Shown: in pieces, positions 24,844-34,029 of the stretch
Layout of the letters: the number at the start of each line of letters is the position of its first letter
How positions within the stretch are numbered: position 1 is the stretch's first letter
DNA from: Soonwooa buanensis
GTDB taxonomy: Bacteria; Bacteroidota; Bacteroidia; Flavobacteriales; Weeksellaceae
Length of the DNA stretch: 64,000 nt
Reading direction: 5' to 3'
Assembly (NCBI RefSeq): GCF_900167905.1
Contig: NZ_FUYZ01000002.1
Span: 248,001-312,000, forward strand
Position numbers and translations under genes: made by a program
Notes under the pieces: model-generated
Database searches by the model: none
What the model was told of the DNA's origin: nothing
What the model saw: the letters and a program-made list of their open reading frames with translations, nothing else

Positions 24844-25647
24844 TTAATCTTTATTAAGGTTAAACGAAATGTTAATTTTTGTTCCTTCCGTTTCTTTACA
24901 GATATTAAAAGTGCCACCAACACTTTCGGCTCTAGACTTCATGGTGGTTAGTCCATAGCCATCAACACGTGCTTGTTGTATCCCGACACCATTGTCTTGG
25001 ATGGAAATACGAATGAAATTTTGTCCTTCAACGGCATCAAAAATAACGCGTGTTGCTTGACTGTGTTTAACAATATTGTGACAAGCTTCTTTGATGATTA
25101 ACAATACATTTCGACGTAACTCTGCACTAACGATTGTGTCAGGATTCTCGATATCTTGTTGCTGCGTAAATTGAATTTTTGTTTTAGATAGATAACTTTC
25201 GACGTAGTTTTTACAGTAATCAAGCATTTTTCTAACATTGTCGTTGGAGGAGTTGAGTGACCACAAAATCTCACGCATCGATAGATTAATCTCTTCAGAA
25301 ATTCTTATAAGTTCATCAATTTCGGCTTTACTAATGCTTTTGTTATCGATGTTATGTTTCAGGATTTCCGATTGCAGTTTTATGGCGGAAAGTCCTGCGC
25401 CAATATCATCATGCATATCGTGAGAAATCCTTTCTCGTTCGGATTGTAAAGATTTATGTTTTTCTATTTCCTTTTGTAGGAGATTATTTTTATGTTCAAT
25501 ATCTTTAATTTGGCTTTCCTTGATGTGGTTGATTTGGTTTTTGTTATAAAGTAAAATCACAAAAATAATGAAGCCCAAAAAAAGTAGCAAAAGCGCAACA
25601 GCGAATGCAAACGTTAATTTTACTTCGTATGCGACAGTCAGAATCAT
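24844..25647 (-). CDS. NarX/DesK-type sensor histidine kinase
   Basis: 267 residues. One N-terminal membrane helix (about 10-33) with almost no extracellular part, a coiled coil (about 38-70), HisKA_3 dimerisation domain with the acceptor His79 in ISHDMHDDIGAG, and HATPase_c (N box KEACHNIVKHSQA, then DNGVGIQ and GYGLTTMKSR). Its start overlaps the end of the membrane-protein gene upstream by 4 bp, so it is the last gene of a four-gene operon headed by its likely cognate LuxR regulator. With so small a sensor of its own, it may take its signal from the multi-helix protein encoded before it; that is inference. Confidence 0.92.
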   Translation of the reverse strand: MILTVAYEVKLTFAFAVALLLLFLGFIIFVILLYNKNQINHIKESQIKDIEHKNNLLQKEIEKHKSLQSERERISHDMHDDIGAGLSAIKLQSEILKHNIDNKSISKAEIDELIRISEEINLSMREILWSLNSSNDNVRKMLDYCKNYVESYLSKTKIQFTQQQDIENPDTIVSAELRRNVLLIIKEACHNIVKHSQATRVIFDAVEGQNFIRISIQDNGVGIQQARVDGYGLTTMKSRAESVGGTFNICKETEGTKINISFNLNKD

Positions 25648-26228
25648 ATTTTACAAGTCGTAGCTTTCAATAGTAAAAGATAAGAAATAATTACTGCAAT
25701 CATAAAACTTTTGGTTATTAATTGCAAAAATTCTACATCCATTACATTAAGTAAGTTGGTGGGTACAATTCTAAAAATAAACACAATACTAAAGAATAGT
25801 AAGCTAGTCGCTACCCAAAATTTTTGTTTTTTATAAATTGGTGTTACATCTGTGTTTTTAAGTTGTAAGAAAAACCATCGTAAACTTAAGAACGTGTAGG
25901 TAACGCACAAAATAACACTTAATATAATTTGATAATTGGCTTCTGTTCCGAAAAATATAGCACTTAGTATAATATTGATGATTGCTAAAATCCAGCTAAA
26001 TTTTTTATTTTTTTCTTCTGTACCAAAGTAGTAAATGAAAAATAGGCTATATAGCGGAATTGTAAAAATGTAAAGACTATAAGGCATTAACTCAATTTTG
26101 TTTAGGTTTTCACAAGTAAAAACCGTCGCAAAATAAAGCCACAAAAAATGTTGCTCTGTTTTTCTATTGATGATAGAAGATACAAAACATAGGAAAACAA
26201 CAAATAGATAAATGTACAGTATTAGCAT
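25644..26228 (-). CDS. Unknown multi-helix membrane protein of the two-component operon
   Basis: 194 residues, very hydrophobic, about six membrane helices (for example ILYIYLFVVFLCFVSSII and SLLFFSIVFIFRIV). No recognised family. Its start overlaps the stop of the gene upstream (TAATG at 26228) and its end overlaps the kinase start by 4 bp, so the three are translationally coupled. A likely role is sensing or modulating the kinase in the membrane. Confidence 0.7.
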   Translation of the reverse strand: MLILYIYLFVVFLCFVSSIINRKTEQHFLWLYFATVFTCENLNKIELMPYSLYIFTIPLYSLFFIYYFGTEEKNKKFSWILAIINIILSAIFFGTEANYQIILSVILCVTYTFLSLRWFFLQLKNTDVTPIYKKQKFWVATSLLFFSIVFIFRIVPTNLLNVMDVEFLQLITKSFMIAVIISYLLLLKATTCKI

Positions 26229-26830
26229 TATCTACATTTACCAGGAGGGCATAATGTTGCCATGTCAAAATATGTCGGGTCTCCTGCAAGAGCTAGACGA
26301 GACTCAAAATGCATAACGAAAGTTAATTTGTGTAATCTTGTTATATCGCTAGTTTTGTTATCAATTCCCATTTGTAAAACAATGCCTGTATGTGTTTGTG
26401 GATCAAATGCATCAAAATTATTTTGGTAATGTATCGTTATTTGTCTCGTATTCTCATGCTTAGTACCATCATTAAACATTTTTGTAATACGTGTGTCAAA
26501 CTTTGGACGTAATCCCTTAGTGGTATCATCAAAGTTTTTTCGCATGGCATCATCGCCACGACTATCTATTTCTACTGCAACATCTTGATCGATTAGAAGG
26601 TTTGTTTTCCCTGCTTCGTCGGTGTACAGAAGATTAAGTTCTTTATCTACTTGCGCGAATCTCAACACCAAATCTTTCTTTTGATCGATAAGTCCTTTTA
26701 GTAGGTTATAACTCATTTTATAAGTTTTGTCTACTAATATGTCTCCACCAAATTCGTTTTCAAAATTTTTCATCATTTCCAAAGCTAAGTCCTTTGGAAT
26801 TGGTCCTGATTGGTTTTTTTCTTGATCCAT
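26228..26830 (-). CDS. Unknown soluble protein of the two-component operon
   Basis: 200 residues without signal peptide or membrane helix, rich in Asp/Lys, with a mixed alpha/beta pattern; it ends in a small Cys-containing tail (CPPGKCR). I recognise no family. It sits second in the operon, 33 bp after the response regulator and coupled by TAATG to the membrane-protein gene. A role in signal input or output of the system is inferred only from position. Confidence 0.65.
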   Translation of the reverse strand: MDQEKNQSGPIPKDLALEMMKNFENEFGGDILVDKTYKMSYNLLKGLIDQKKDLVLRFAQVDKELNLLYTDEAGKTNLLIDQDVAVEIDSRGDDAMRKNFDDTTKGLRPKFDTRITKMFNDGTKHENTRQITIHYQNNFDAFDPQTHTGIVLQMGIDNKTSDITRLHKLTFVMHFESRLALAGDPTYFDMATLCPPGKCR

Positions 26831-26863
26831 GGTTTTTAGTTTTATTAATTGTTTTAGTGTTTA

Positions 26864-27496
26864 TTAGTGTTTAGAAATATTAAGTTTATTAAGCGCTTCT
26901 ACTTTGTTATTTACATTTAACTTTCTGTAGATACTTCCAACATGTTTTTTTACAGTTTCGGGTGAGATGCCTTTGTTGGCCGCTATTTCCTTATACTGTA
27001 ATCCTTCGGATAGCCCATTTAAGATATACTTTTCCGTTGGCGTTAATTCATCAACTAGTTGATGATCTTGTTCTTGATTTTGGAAGTGTTTCAAAACTTT
27101 TTTTGCAATATTATTGCTCATTGGGCTTCCGCCGTTTTGTGCAGTAATAATTGCTTGTGTTATATTTTGTAGACTTTCACCTTTCACCAAGTAGCCGACA
27201 GCACCAGATCTTAGAGCGTCAAATACTTTGTCGTCGTCTTCGTGATTGGTACAAATGATGAATTGAGTTTTTGGGAGCTGGCTTTTGAGAGCTCGAATAA
27301 TGTCAGTGCCCCAAGAATCGTATAGTTGTAAATCCATTAATACAACATCGGGATCGAGTTCTGCCAGATTATCCGAAGCTGCTTTGCCAGAAAAATATTG
27401 TCCCACACAACACATTTGATCATTATAATTAATAACCTTTTTCAACGTGTTGTTGTAGTTCTTATCATCTTCGACAATAGCAACTTGGATTTTCAT
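26864..27496 (-). CDS. LuxR/NarL-family response regulator
   Basis: 210 residues from the preferred ATG at 27494-27496 (six codons downstream of the longest frame start, giving the standard MKIQVAIVEDD beginning). Receiver domain with acidic pocket EDD (9-11) and phospho-acceptor Asp55 in VVLMDLQLYD; C-terminal LuxR helix-turn-helix (about 145-205: LTPTEKYILNGLSEGLQYKEIA, SPETVKKHVGSIYRKL). It heads the operon regulator-unknown-membrane-kinase. A 20-bp palindrome sits at its promoter, suggesting autoregulation. Confidence 0.92.
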   Translation of the reverse strand: MKIQVAIVEDDKNYNNTLKKVINYNDQMCCVGQYFSGKAASDNLAELDPDVVLMDLQLYDSWGTDIIRALKSQLPKTQFIICTNHEDDDKVFDALRSGAVGYLVKGESLQNITQAIITAQNGGSPMSNNIAKKVLKHFQNQEQDHQLVDELTPTEKYILNGLSEGLQYKEIAANKGISPETVKKHVGSIYRKLNVNNKVEALNKLNISKH

Positions 27497-27511: not shown

Positions 27512-27561
27512 CAAAGATTAATAATACAGAGGTAAATTCCAATACCGAATTTGGGGTATAT
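27512..27561 (-). promoter_or_regulatory. Promoter and palindromic operator of the two-component operon
   Basis: The palindrome ATACCGAATTTGGGGTATAT (27542-27561; arms ATACC/GGTAT) closely resembles the one at 20644-20663. It abuts a minus-strand TTG (27542-27540), which is followed after 19 bp by TAATCTTTG (27520-27512), a -7 box with one extra base. The position overlapping -33 suits a response-regulator site. Function inferred. Confidence 0.5.
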
Positions 27562-30048: not shown

Positions 30049-33000
30049 TTAATTTGATTTTAATAAAATCCAATCTTTTAGTGTCACAATTTTTCCCTCC
30101 GAATTTGTCCAAATGATAATATACCAATAAGTTCCTGTTTTTGATTTTAAACCATTGTGAGTGCCATTCCAAATGAATTGGTTGTTTTGGTTGCCTTCAA
30201 AATGCAGGGCACCATAACGATCGACAATCTGTAGCGTCGCATTTTTTTGATTTAGAAGGAATGAAAAATCAGCAACATCATTAATGCCATCATTATTTGG
30301 TGTGAAAACATTTGGGATTTTATACTCTTCTATTGTTTCTTTTTCAGTTGTAAATCGATGTTCCGCACAACCAGTGGCATCTCCCGCAGAATTAAACGGA
30401 ATAATTCTCACAAAATAATTCGTGCTGTAATTCAAATTTGTTGGAAGTTCAAAACTTGTAACATTTCCTAAATTTTGATTTAAAACATCATTTCCACCAG
30501 CGGTTGTACCGATTCTGATTCTGTAATCCGTTGCGCCTGAACTTGCTGTCCAAGTGATTGTCGGATTGACGGAAACGTTGGTTGCATTATTTGTTGGAGA
30601 AACAATGGTCGTACAAGCAGGAACGCTTGGTGTTGTCAGGGTTCTAAAACTTGTTTGTGTACATCCTGACGCATTTCCAGTCGTGTTGTAAGGCGTAATT
30701 CGGATGTAATACAAGGTATTTTGAGCAAGTGTAGTTGTCAAAGTGTGATAAGTGACATTTCCGACATCTTGATTATTTAGAACATCAGAATTGGTTGGTG
30801 TTGTCCCAATTGTGATTCTGTAACCTGTCGCATTAGAAACCGAATTCCAAGTAATGATTGGTGTTAAAGAAATATTCGTCGCATTATTAGCTGGCGAAAT
30901 AATCGCGGAGCAAGCCGGAATTGTTATGGGTTTAGCTTCAGTTGTAAATTGATGTTCCGAACAACCTGTCGCATCTCCCGCCGAATTAAATGGAATAATT
31001 TGTACAAAATAATTTGTGCTATAATCTAAATTAAACGGAAGTTCAAAACTTGTAACATTTCCTAAATCTTGATTTAAAACATCATTTCCGCCAGCTGTTG
31101 TACCGATTCTAATTCTGTAACCTGTCGCACCCGAACTTGCTGTCCAAGTAATTGTTGGATTGATGGAAATGCTGGTTGCATTATTTGTAGGAGAAGTAAT
31201 CGTTGAACAAGCCGGAATTGTTATGGGTTTAGCTTCTGTTGTAAATCGATGTTCCGAACAGCCAGTCGCATCTCCCGCCGAATTAAACGGAATAATTTGT
31301 ACAAAATAATTTGTGCTATAATTTAAGTTTGATGGAAATGTAAATGAAATTACATTTCCTAAATTCTGATCTAAAACATCATTTCCACCTGCATATGTCC
31401 CGATTCTAATTCTGTAACCTGTCGCGCCAGAACTTGCTATCCAAGTGATTGTTGGATTGACGGAAACGTTTGTCGCATTATTTGTAGGAGAAGTAATCGT
31501 TGAACAAGCAGGCACCGTTGGCGTAGTCAAAGTTCTAAAACTCGTTTGTGTACAACCTGACGCATTTCCAGTTGTGTTGTAAGGCGTAATTCGGATGTAA
31601 TACAAGGTGTTTTGAGCAAGTGTAGTTGTCAAAGTGTGAGAAGTAACATTTCCGACATCTTGATTATTTATAACATCAGAATTGGTTGGTGTTGTCCCAA
31701 TTGTGATTCTGTAGCCTGTCGCATTAGAAACCGAATTCCAAGTAATGATTGGCGTTAAAGAAATATTCGTCGCATTATTAGCTGGCGAAATAATCGTTGT
31801 ACAAGCAGGCACCGTTGGCGTAGTCAAAGTTCTAAAACTCGTTTGTGTACAACCTGACGCATTTCCAGCCGTGTTATAAGGCGTAATTCGGATGTAATAC
31901 AAGGTGTTTTGAGCAAGTGTAGTTGTCAAAGTGTGGGAAGTAAGATTTCCGACATCTTGATTATTTAGAATGTCGGCATTTGTTGGAGTTGTTCCAATTG
32001 TTAAACGATATCCAGTTGCGCCAGCACTAGGATTCCAAGAAATTGTAGGTCTTAAAGGAATATTAGTTGCGTTATTAGCTGGCGAAATAATCGATGTACA
32101 AGCAGGAATCGTTACCGTAGGATTTGCAGTGGTAAAAGAATATTCACTACAATTTGCCGTAGCCGAAACCGCATTAAAAGGCGTAATTCTCACATAGTAT
32201 GTTGTTCCTGGCGATAAATCGGTCGGGTGATTATAAGTTGTTACATTTCCAACATTTAAATTATTCAAGATATTTGTTCCGCCTGCGGTTGTACCAATAG
32301 AAACTCGATAACCGGTTGCATTGGCGATGGCATTCCAAGAAATATTTGTTGTAATCGGAACATTGGTTGCGTTTGGTGTTGGTAAAATCATCGCAGGACA
32401 CGCAAGTACAACCGGTTGTAATTCATAAGCGCCAAGATCTATGGATGAACCCACCAATCGCGGCTGATTTACTAAATCCGTTGAAGTTCCTGCCGGAGCC
32501 GTAGAAACTTGATTATACAAAGCATTCACACCATAATTAACGGCTGGACTTGTTTGTTGTAATCGGAAATTCGCCGAATTATTTATAAATAACGGATTTA
32601 CGCTAACTAAATTCGCGGTACCCGCAGTGTAACTTTGCGTAATATTTCGTCGAATATCTTTCTCGCCACTATCTGCGTTGACCATTTCTGAATGAATATC
32701 TGGTCTAAAACCTCCCGTTCTTGCCGAATTTTGATAAAAAATAGAATTATAAATATGAGTAATATTCGGATTAGATGGTGTATTTGGGAAACGGGGAATT
32801 ATAAAAGCAGTATTTGTATTGGCAACAAAAGTTGCATTAGCAACGTCGATATTTCGATAATTATAAATTGCGCCACCTTTGTCACTTGCTAAATTTTTGT
32901 GAAAAAGCGCGTTCGAAATTTTTAATCCTTCATCACTAAAATTATAAATGGCACCGCCTTGTTTTGCAGCATTATCATAAAATTCAGACTTGTTAATCGT

Positions 33001-34029
33001 GGATATTTCCGAAAATCGATGATTGTATATTGCTCCTCCTTTTTCGCTTGCTTTATTATTTCTGAAAACGGTATTCAGGAAATCCCACTTACCAAAACTG
33101 CTGTTAAGTGCACCTCCTTCTTGGGCTTCATTATTAGTAAATTGCGAGTTTTCAACCGAAAGTGATGTTCCAAAAATAAAAATTCCGCCACCTTCGTCTG
33201 CTTTGTTGCCAATAAATTGAGTGTTTTTTAATTTAACATCATAATAATTAATATAAATACCACCGCCTTGTGTTTCGGTAGTATTATTTTCAAACCGAGT
33301 ATTTTCTAGGTGGAAATTTTCTCCCCAAGTATAAATGGCACCACCTTCATTTTCCGCATAATTATTTCGGAATACAGAATTTTTTATGGTGACATTATCC
33401 GACCAATTGTGGATTGCACCACCGCCATTGTCGCCCATTGGATAAACTTTGCGGTTGCTCCTATTATTCTCGAAAGTACAATTATCAATAAGAATTGCGC
33501 CGTTGAAACCATGCATGAGATAAAGTGCACCTGCACCACGACCACCTTCCGAAATATTGTTTCTAAAGGTTGAATTCCGGATCTCTCCAAAATTGGCTCT
33601 TAAGACAAGTCCCGCTCCGCCTTCATTAGCGCCTGTAACGAATCCATCAATGAAATTAACACCATCAATACTACAATCATCTTCTTGAATATACATGATT
33701 TGAGTTTTCTTTTGTCCATTAAGATTTGTTGGATACAAAGTGAAATTTCGGGTTGTTCCCGCACCGCTGTAACCACCAACAAGACGAACTTTTCTCCCCC
33801 AATCAATTCTTAAAGTTGAAGTTATAAGATAATTTCCTTGGCGTAATCTAAGTTCTGTTTGTCCAACATTTAAATTAGTGACGGCATTTTGTAGTGATTT
33901 TGCATTGGCCCAAGAACTTCCGTTTTGGGTTCCGGAACCGGTTGGTGAAACATACCAAATCGTTTGCCCCGAAAGAGCAATTGACAAAAAAGAACAAAAA
34001 AGAATAAAAAAGATAGAAATCCTTTGCAT
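30049..34029 (-). CDS. Giant surface protein: beta-helix, seven FN3-like repeats, T9SS type B signal
   Basis: 1326 residues. A signal peptide (ending ALSGQ, about 22) is followed by a right-handed beta-helix (about 30-500) with many short repeats of the type NNxAxxGGAIYN, as in polymorphic outer-membrane proteins. Seven fibronectin-III-like modules of about 98 residues follow (DNA 30345-32410), each starting PAC(S/T)xIxSPxNNAT and containing ATGYRxxIGT. The end is the type B (gliding-motility-associated) signal: NVFTPNNDGINDVADF through WKDWILLK-like strands. It is expected on the cell surface or released as an adhesin or matrix protein. The modules fall in two subfamilies in mosaic order. 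No enzyme motif seen. Confidence 0.92.
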   Translation of the reverse strand: MQRISIFFILFCSFLSIALSGQTIWYVSPTGSGTQNGSSWANAKSLQNAVTNLNVGQTELRLRQGNYLITSTLRIDWGRKVRLVGGYSGAGTTRNFTLYPTNLNGQKKTQIMYIQEDDCSIDGVNFIDGFVTGANEGGAGLVLRANFGEIRNSTFRNNISEGGRGAGALYLMHGFNGAILIDNCTFENNRSNRKVYPMGDNGGGAIHNWSDNVTIKNSVFRNNYAENEGGAIYTWGENFHLENTRFENNTTETQGGGIYINYYDVKLKNTQFIGNKADEGGGIFIFGTSLSVENSQFTNNEAQEGGALNSSFGKWDFLNTVFRNNKASEKGGAIYNHRFSEISTINKSEFYDNAAKQGGAIYNFSDEGLKISNALFHKNLASDKGGAIYNYRNIDVANATFVANTNTAFIIPRFPNTPSNPNITHIYNSIFYQNSARTGGFRPDIHSEMVNADSGEKDIRRNITQSYTAGTANLVSVNPLFINNSANFRLQQTSPAVNYGVNALYNQVSTAPAGTSTDLVNQPRLVGSSIDLGAYELQPVVLACPAMILPTPNATNVPITTNISWNAIANATGYRVSIGTTAGGTNILNNLNVGNVTTYNHPTDLSPGTTYYVRITPFNAVSATANCSEYSFTTANPTVTIPACTSIISPANNATNIPLRPTISWNPSAGATGYRLTIGTTPTNADILNNQDVGNLTSHTLTTTLAQNTLYYIRITPYNTAGNASGCTQTSFRTLTTPTVPACTTIISPANNATNISLTPIITWNSVSNATGYRITIGTTPTNSDVINNQDVGNVTSHTLTTTLAQNTLYYIRITPYNTTGNASGCTQTSFRTLTTPTVPACSTITSPTNNATNVSVNPTITWIASSGATGYRIRIGTYAGGNDVLDQNLGNVISFTFPSNLNYSTNYFVQIIPFNSAGDATGCSEHRFTTEAKPITIPACSTITSPTNNATSISINPTITWTASSGATGYRIRIGTTAGGNDVLNQDLGNVTSFELPFNLDYSTNYFVQIIPFNSAGDATGCSEHQFTTEAKPITIPACSAIISPANNATNISLTPIITWNSVSNATGYRITIGTTPTNSDVLNNQDVGNVTYHTLTTTLAQNTLYYIRITPYNTTGNASGCTQTSFRTLTTPSVPACTTIVSPTNNATNVSVNPTITWTASSGATDYRIRIGTTAGGNDVLNQNLGNVTSFELPTNLNYSTNYFVRIIPFNSAGDATGCAEHRFTTEKETIEEYKIPNVFTPNNDGINDVADFSFLLNQKNATLQIVDRYGALHFEGNQNNQFIWNGTHNGLKSKTGTYWYIIIWTNSEGKIVTLKDWILLKSN
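30345..32410 (-). repeat. Seven tandem FN3-encoding DNA repeats (about 297 bp)
   Basis: Approximate units: 32410-32109 (r1), 32108-31812 (r2), 31811-31515 (r3), 31514-31218 (r4), 31217-30921 (r5), 30920-30626 (r6), 30625-30345 (r7). r2, r3 and r6 share NTLYYIRITPYN (type A); r4, r5 and r7 share TNYFV(Q/R)IIPFNSAGDATGC (type B). Several units are nearly identical at DNA level, so recent duplication or conversion is likely and assembly here could be fragile. Confidence 0.85.

Follow-up and report, generated by a model that had tools for sequence, protein, structure and literature searches.

Two-component systems that pair a histidine kinase (HK) of the HisKA_3 class with a NarL/LuxR-type response regulator (RR) in one operon include NarX/NarL, LiaS/LiaR and similar systems. 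ComP and ComA, the kinase and regulator of ComQXPA, are of this kind, and ComQ is an isoprenyl transferase, the processing enzyme of that system; the kinase and regulator of agr belong to different classes, and RcsB, of the Rcs system, is a LuxR-type regulator. In the part of the source consulted for ComQXPA of Bacillus, a polymorphic block is incongruent with the conserved genes (comQ compared with gyrA; PMC4408185), and the corresponding part of the source for agr of staphylococci describes a hypervariable region (PMC10482373). The locus considered here is a four-gene operon of Soonwooa buanensis (Weeksellaceae, Flavobacteriales), found in a stretch of 64,000 nucleotides (contig NZ_FUYZ01000002.1 of assembly GCF_900167905.1, positions 248,001 to 312,000; the whole of this stretch is referred to as the window). 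Its RR and HisKA_3-type kinase genes enclose the genes of a variable protein, designated SOL, and of a seven-helix membrane protein, designated 7TM.

The domains of HK and RR, and their presence in one operon, are those of the NarL/LuxR-HisKA_3 systems; what differs is that HK has a single transmembrane (TM) segment and no sensor region, and that two extra proteins of unfamiliar families lie between RR and HK. The nearest analogies are ComQXPA and agr for the pattern of variation and Rcs for the layout; homology to the special parts of these systems is not found. As far as the consulted part of PMC4408185 goes, ComQXPA is similar in having a polymorphic block between conserved genes with a tree that disagrees with theirs (here, between species). 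Here, however, the variable block consists of SOL, 7TM and ~35 residues of HK, the kinase itself lacks a TM sensor, and no short pre-peptide or processing enzyme is found among the four genes (by their open reading frames (ORFs) and Pfam). With agr, as that locus is presented in the consulted part of PMC10482373, the operon shares a make-up of four signalling genes, a centre that is hypervariable and a division into allele groups; in contrast, 7TM has no Pfam match at E ≤ 1 to an AgrB-type membrane peptidase, and SOL is a protein of ~200-300 residues with a folded body and a conserved tail. The Rcs layout, in the partial account consulted, likewise combines a lipoprotein (sometimes the case here), a polytopic membrane protein, a kinase and a LuxR-type regulator; here, Pfam detects no homologues of Rcs components (IgaA included) in SOL or 7TM, there is no histidine phosphotransfer (HPt) gene among the four, and alleles are swapped.

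Two histories within one operon

All four genes lie on the minus strand. The 210-residue RR (26864..27496, ATG at 27496) matches Response_reg (1.8e-20) and GerE (2.1e-15) and is separated by 33 bp from SOL (26228..26830), a variable protein of 200 residues that has no signal peptide and ends in CPPGKCR. SOL and the 194-residue 7TM (25644..26228) meet at a TAATG junction, and 7TM overlaps the 267-residue HK (24844..25647) by 4 bp (ATGA). Response_reg and GerE in RR, and HisKA_3 and HATPase_c in HK, lie above the curated cut-offs of Pfam; SOL and 7TM match no Pfam family at E ≤ 1, and their NCBIfam matches are insignificant. An earlier note on this DNA had described just such an order (LuxR regulator, soluble protein, membrane protein, HisKA_3 kinase), with a TAATG junction, a 4-bp overlap and two middle proteins of no known family, and the coordinates and profile scans bear it out on all these points.

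In silico comparison shows SOL and 7TM to be jointly inherited and jointly exchanged beside the slower-changing RR and HK. The comparison draws on 80 named loci, the best 80 of 110 found by scanning with a profile made from the N-termini of seven cassette kinases (built in this way, the profile biases the scan toward cassette members). Seventy-five of these, together with the window and L002, from a sister genome, form a 77-locus set. (L203, L222, L230, L231 and L247 were left out because a gene was uncalled, called short or cut by a contig end; on rechecking, the 7TM frame is full-length in the first four and has an in-frame stop in L247.) Median pairwise identity in this set is 83.3% for RR, 68.5% for HK, 29.3% for 7TM and 15.7% for SOL. 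Distances correlate between RR and HK (0.917) and between SOL and 7TM (0.737), and the four cross pairs give values of 0.09-0.15. The partial Mantel correlation of SOL and 7TM, given RR and HK, is 0.73 (p 0.001); its permutations ignore relatedness, and tree tests were therefore added.

Ninety-three pairs of loci are at least 93% identical in RR and at least 75% identical in HK, and in 60 of them 7TM identity is below 40%. Flavobacterium collinsii (L226) and Flavobacterium sp. UGB4466 (L234) are 100% identical in RR, 96% in HK, 26% in 7TM and 15% in SOL; for Chryseobacterium gambrini (L197) and C. mucoviscidosis (L252) the corresponding values are 100, 93, 22 and 15%. At the DNA level both pairs are ~96-100% identical in RR and 37-59% identical across SOL and 7TM; identity drops at the start of SOL and is back above 90% one or two 120-base windows into HK. 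In three further pairs (five profiled in all) the identity profile has the same shape, at lower values. Approximately unbiased (AU) tests on the 7TM tree reject {L197, L252} (p 2e-4), {L226, L234} (p 1e-56) and {L184, L198, L221, L236} (p 2e-134), groups whose support as RR+HK clades by the Shimodaira-Hasegawa-like approximate likelihood ratio test (SH-aLRT) is 74, 100 and 98, respectively; the groups were picked from the identity table and the trees are quick ones. Characters of SOL follow the 7TM tree more closely: the class of its tail, defined by whether any of the final four residues is a Cys, switches 19 times on the RR+HK tree vs 6 times on the 7TM tree, and a predicted lipoprotein start 15 vs 7 times. 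Ratios of nonsynonymous to synonymous substitution (dN/dS) in 13 pairs, with saturated values omitted, are 0.14-0.37 for SOL, 0.04-0.25 for 7TM, 0.05-0.12 for HK and 0.02-0.06 for RR.

The SOL tail, 7TM and the input end of the kinase

The AlphaFold2 model of SOL (mean predicted local distance difference test score, pLDDT, 86.5) has a predicted globular α/β body, modelled with confidence, and a low-confidence end, the last two 10-residue blocks scoring 72 and 52. No fold can be assigned to it (best VIA Z 5.5, to 9-1-1/PCNA clamps; best Foldseek E 0.057). The CPPGKCR tail to which the earlier note drew attention is indeed present at the end of SOL in the window, as part of a 14-residue segment ending LCPPGKCR (codons at 26231..26272, minus strand), and proves to be one version of a wider motif, Y/F-D/N-x(3-5)-P, that takes the forms CPPGxC, CPPPxxSNC, CLKPPGC and LCPxQCP; some tails end in a bare final Pro (for example, YDMGSLYP). 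The motif fits 79 of 82 SOLs vs 8 of 452 control ORFs, and Pro is the last residue in 50/82 vs 4/452. (The pattern was composed after viewing the tails, and the controls are all other ORFs of at least 150 codons in those loci, spurious ones included.)

In silico, the tail tracks the 7TM type even when SOL bodies are dissimilar. For SOLs with bodies less than 22% identical, identity over the last 14 residues is 0.64 if their 7TMs are similar (21 pairs) vs 0.29 if 7TM identity is below 30% (1010 pairs); six other SOL segments, in the same sets of pairs, yield 0.15-0.25 vs 0.18-0.20. Similarity between SOLs with dissimilar bodies ends ~14 residues from the SOL end. The partial correlation of tail and 7TM, given body and RR, is 0.55; that of body and 7TM, given tail and RR, is 0.46, which implies that the body counts as well. 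By a simple rule, 63 of 82 SOLs carry no export signal and 17 of 82 are predicted lipoproteins. A Cys-Cys bridge between the SOL tail and the C-terminal Cys of 7TM was hinted at by the first few loci (CPPGxC with FCK) and was discarded, many loci having one without the other. The evidence for homology between the window-type SOL and SOLs of distant types is weaker than that for 7TM: hhalign gives E 1.1e-5 (probability 81.5, 59 columns) with short SOLs and E 0.069 (probability 0.8) with long SOLs, and the tail motif is similar. Among other families, long and short SOLs align at 7.2e-14, with the short form corresponding to the C-terminal half of the long one, a possible sign of duplication.

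The membrane protein was credited with six helices in the earlier note; AlphaFold2 (mean pLDDT 92.3) instead predicts seven, at residues 2-20, 29-44, 50-69, 76-92, 99-124, 135-160 and 165-191. Loops on the C-side contain a mean of 10.4 Lys and Arg residues vs 3.0 on the N-side (38 sequences), which, by the positive-inside rule, implies an N-out/C-in orientation. The window type of 7TM and distant types are homologous (hhalign E 1.5e-17 over 202 columns). The number of helices and their orientation are also those of seven-helix receptors (the G protein-coupled receptor, GPCR, and bacteriorhodopsin folds); VIA-align yields Z up to 11.9 with the GPCR/rhodopsin fold (root-mean-square deviation 3.7, 181 residues), a value within that tool's range for helical bundles, the best Foldseek E is 0.68, and homology is not shown. 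Two or three 7TM genes in tandem lie between one SOL and one HK in L312, L313 and L324.

HK has a single TM segment by hydropathy in 76 of 77 kinases, at residues 15-33 in the case of the window, where the earlier note had remarked that the kinase is nearly devoid of an extracellular part; the H-box pattern is found in 77/77. The partial correlation of HK with 7TM, given RR, is 0.43 for residues 1-20, 0.26 for residues 15-35, 0.07 for residues 30-50 and ~0 from residue 45 on, and the rest of HK follows RR; the co-varying residues 1-35 are encoded at 25543..25647 (minus strand). At RR, the other border of the swapped block, no positive covariation with 7TM stands out, the last 16 residues included. 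Covariation of 7TM with the N-terminus of HK and not with the C-terminus of RR fits a contact between 7TM and the HK helix; alternatively, it may stem from recombination that by chance ended within HK.

Occurrence, surroundings and the palindrome upstream of RR

Conservation of the four-gene order, which the earlier note proposed to check, extends over 79 of the 80 kinase-anchored loci (76 by script, with L203, L222 and L231, in which SOL is present, added on inspection); the remaining locus, L230, begins inside SOL at a contig end. SOL and 7TM genes precede HK in 80/80, counting L230 (SOL end only) and L247 (7TM frame broken). The note had also specified what would speak against a sensor role of the two middle proteins: relatives with an intact RR-HK pair from which both middle genes are absent. 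Forty family genomes that lack a 7TM match (31 from Chryseobacterium group g21, the others hand-chosen from further genera) provide no such case, none of them retaining an intact close RR (E ≤ 1e-40). In one (G103), the decayed remains of an RR gene, disrupted by stop codons, lie between rplQ and eno (L329), the site of the intact cassette in other genomes; the RR match of another (G268), at 41%, is at paralogue level. In a control with nine genomes that have 7TM, a close RR is found in seven (6.3e-63 to 2.2e-75) and none in G290 and G293.

A first search of genome contigs with SOL found no relatives, and in 320 family genomes a single-sequence SOL query recovers, apart from itself, one strong relative, with several weak matches that prove to be the same cassette; relatives are few by this approach because SOL is hypervariable. 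The 7TM profile finds relatives in 166/320 genomes of the family, in 47/296 of the order, and in 103/395 genomes and 62/197 genera of the class Bacteroidia. Forty class-wide neighbourhoods, hand-picked mostly from the strong end of the match list, have the order SOL-7TM-HK-RR by reading, with a gene directly before 7TM in 40/40, HK in 40/40 and RR in 39/40 (in L322, RR is not found within the examined stretch). The same order is read in 12 of 15 further loci (L163-L177); RR comes first in L174, neither HK nor RR adjoins 7TM in L172, and L176 is cut off by a contig edge. In L105, SOL is separated from 7TM by two additional genes. A second SOL-7TM-HK-RR set lies near clpB, by eye, in the Chryseobacterium group (L175, 1-7001; L325; L326); SOLs at clpB have a core resembling IR(F/M)YYAAYP and end in LIPP...F, and the set in L175 has two 7TM genes before one HK-RR. 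Plasmid-borne copies were sought and rejected: the kinase query at E ≤ 1e-20 finds solely one distant Hymenobacter kinase.

In the window the locus lies behind groES/groEL, and most of the Chryseobacterium copies sit between rplQ and eno (gene names assigned by eye); with the flanking genes differing in this way, the neighbours yield no common functional hint. Beside groES/groEL the window also encodes a secreted-looking protein of 1326 residues with repeated fibronectin-like stretches, by eye (30049-34029, minus strand). Just upstream of the cassette of the sister genome is an ORF that resembles an integrase-type transposase by eye (L002, 83-601), and single Chryseobacterium loci have, near the cassette, a CHAP-domain protein (L203, 2356-2931) and, by eye, an amidase-like protein (L078, 6074-6898).

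The 300-bp regions upstream of RR contain the palindrome ATTAC-N8-GTAAT in 61 of 80 loci, mostly 63-69 bp before the called RR start; in ten mononucleotide shuffles no dyad reaches more than 6. The loci are related, and part of this recurrence is therefore descent. The strict form, ATTAC[AC]C-N4-G[GT]GTAAT, occurs 67 times in the 80 loci: 58 times upstream of RR, 9 times behind HK, and nowhere else in the loci. Flavobacterium-group regions have ACCC-N4-GGGT at the same place in 13/14. The counterpart in the window is ATACC-N8-GGTAT (27542..27559, minus strand), 63 bp upstream of the RR start; window and sister species share an identical ATACCCCAAATTCGGTAT at -63, with flanks that differ. Twenty strict sites are spread over 13 of 16 cassette genomes, and a comparison of coordinates places 17 of these sites at the cassette; sixteen cassette-less genomes contain 2, and a reversed control pattern is found once across the 32 genomes. 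When up to 3 mismatches are allowed, the Chryseobacterium operator is not enriched in the window (4 matches vs 4.65 expected), and the window-type operator, searched strictly, has one site in its own genome, the operon itself. These distributions suggest a site of self-regulation bound by RR. A family of 109-residue proteins (MKTLINDSI...) with predicted membrane segments and no Pfam match above cut-off is encoded behind HK in 21/80 loci (L178-L257), directly after the second operator copy in 6 of the 9 behind-HK sites.

Proposed mechanism and competing explanations

The explanation that we favor, and hold to be probable, is that SOL and 7TM constitute an exchangeable input module for a sensorless kinase with a self-regulated loop. 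On this view, the sensor of a self-regulated two-component system would have become separate from the kinase and taken the form of two exchangeable proteins. HK would be a sensorless core kinase with one TM helix; 7TM would sit beside that helix and relay the signal; and SOL would be the variable input protein, docking on 7TM through its C-terminal tail. Phosphorylated RR would bind the palindrome before its own gene, so that the loop controls itself, and in some genomes would also control genes directly behind HK. Exchange of SOL and 7TM alleles between genomes would proceed through recombination within RR and HK, the conserved genes on either side. (Docking of the tail, the direction of signalling and the binding of RR to the palindrome are inferred.) The phosphorelay is ordinary; the input side is not. 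The suggestion of the earlier note, that the membrane protein and SOL form the actual sensor, gains support in silico, since SOL and 7TM vary in concert, separately from RR and HK, and are accompanied by the TM segment of HK. No publication on this operon was found among the matches listed in the open-licence PMC literature (titles and abstract openings).

Several observations weigh against this explanation. The 21 pairs on which the comparison of tails is based derive from few events (the 11 pairs listed fall into three groups), and tail and HK N-terminus both border 7TM, so that linkage alone could carry both along with it. In seven pairs the SOL body is at least 40% identical and 7TM less than 40%; SOL and 7TM are therefore not always moving together. 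The C-terminal Cys of SOL and that of 7TM do not strictly co-occur. No dN/dS above 1, which would signal positive selection, is found in the 13 pairs. An in-frame stop breaks 7TM in L247 (4337-4980), with SOL, RR and HK open; HK is thus retained with a broken 7TM. Near glnS, orphan 7TM-HK pairs that lack an adjacent SOL and RR are found in G290, G293 and five other loci of group g27, the Kaistella group (L086, L088, L090, L094, L099, L101 and L102 in all; 6/7 with TRK, not CK, near the 7TM end), and the first 7TM-HK pair in L032 likewise has no adjacent SOL or RR. It follows that the full four-gene set is not always needed (RR was searched for elsewhere, by RR query, in G290, G293 and G292). 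Finally, one 7TM type (61-75% identity) goes with lipoprotein or secreted SOLs and with signal-less SOLs that have the same kind of tail (L208/L246 and L257; L179/L187 and L182/L184/L198), which is hard to reconcile with docking on one side of the membrane: such SOLs must either be exported by an unfamiliar route or act on a side of the membrane that sequence does not reveal.

An alternative that we consider rather unlikely is that SOL monitors the envelope and acts on the kinase through the polytopic membrane protein in the manner of RcsF-IgaA-RcsC/D-RcsB, with pressure from phages, toxins or varied envelopes as the source of variability. We know of no indication that Rcs is an allele-swapped locus. 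The 17/82 predicted lipoproteins, and the Rcs logic of lipoprotein, inner-membrane protein and phosphorelay (as given in a partial account), speak for an envelope sensor; on the other hand, most SOLs lack a signal, and SOL and 7TM have no Pfam match and hence none to parts of Rcs.

Communication of the pherotype kind, with SOL or its tail as intercellular signal, the cognate 7TM as receptor and allele groups as communication groups under diversifying selection, is unlikely in our estimation. A hypervariable, swapped pair in distinct allele groups between conserved RR and HK, and an operator that looks autoregulatory, speak for it, and the pattern is comparable with that of comQ vs gyrA in Bacillus (PMC4408185) and of the hypervariable region of agr in staphylococci (PMC10482373), within the parts of those sources consulted. 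However, 63/82 SOLs carry no export signal by the simple rule, a conserved tail on a variable body is the reverse of a variable pheromone, the four genes include no peptidase or modifying enzyme, and dN/dS does not exceed 1 in data that are between species and not within populations.

SOL and 7TM might also be cargo rather than sensor, a variable conflict or immunity pair that is expressed at the command of a conserved RR-HK and swapped as a load. The rapid turnover and the exchange of alleles would suit such a role, as would conflict-type neighbour domains in a few loci, among them relatives of YLATT proteins in 4/80. (YLATT three-TM proteins lie behind HK in L077 and L222, one with a pYEATS match below the Pfam cut-off.) We regard this as very unlikely: 76/77 kinases have no sensor of their own, HK residues 1-35 co-vary with 7TM, the SOL-7TM-HK-RR set is retained across Bacteroidia, and 7TM-HK pairs persist with no adjacent RR or SOL. 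A defence-system origin was considered and dropped, PADLOC giving only weak matches that are judged to be chance (REase_II at 2.9e-4 for SOL, Cas6 at 0.024 for another SOL). It is just as improbable that recombination and linkage alone are at work, with middle genes that drift fast, travel together as neighbors and encode a tail and 7TM that are functionally uncoupled: SOL and 7TM genes overlap or abut, so that a tract moving one tends to move the other, and tail and HK N-terminus flank the 7TM gene, but the similarity of dissimilar-body SOLs stops ~14 residues from the end, RR borders the block as well and has no such covariation, and other families, in which the genes are ordered differently, retain the pairing.

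A bolder version of the input-module explanation, which we put forward with considerable doubt, is that the locus represents a previously unnamed, polymorphic class of signalling in Bacteroidota, in which the C-terminal tail of a co-inherited partner protein would plug into a stand-alone seven-helix receptor and thereby activate a sensorless kinase; SOL-7TM allele groups would then define who responds (kin or pherotype), and the group could be switched in one two-gene swap between RR and HK.

The locus adds two protein families for which scans of Pfam, NCBIfam and PADLOC give no convincing match. Since the kinase of this compact and widespread operon has no sensor, the question of its activator is approachable by two gene deletions; the conserved operator is a ready-made reporter, and the matching of tail and 7TM a testable specificity code. 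The Bacteroidota gain a locus with the signature of allele swapping that is known from agr and ComQXPA and, if the proposed mechanism is true, would possess natural, exchangeable input modules for one conserved kinase.

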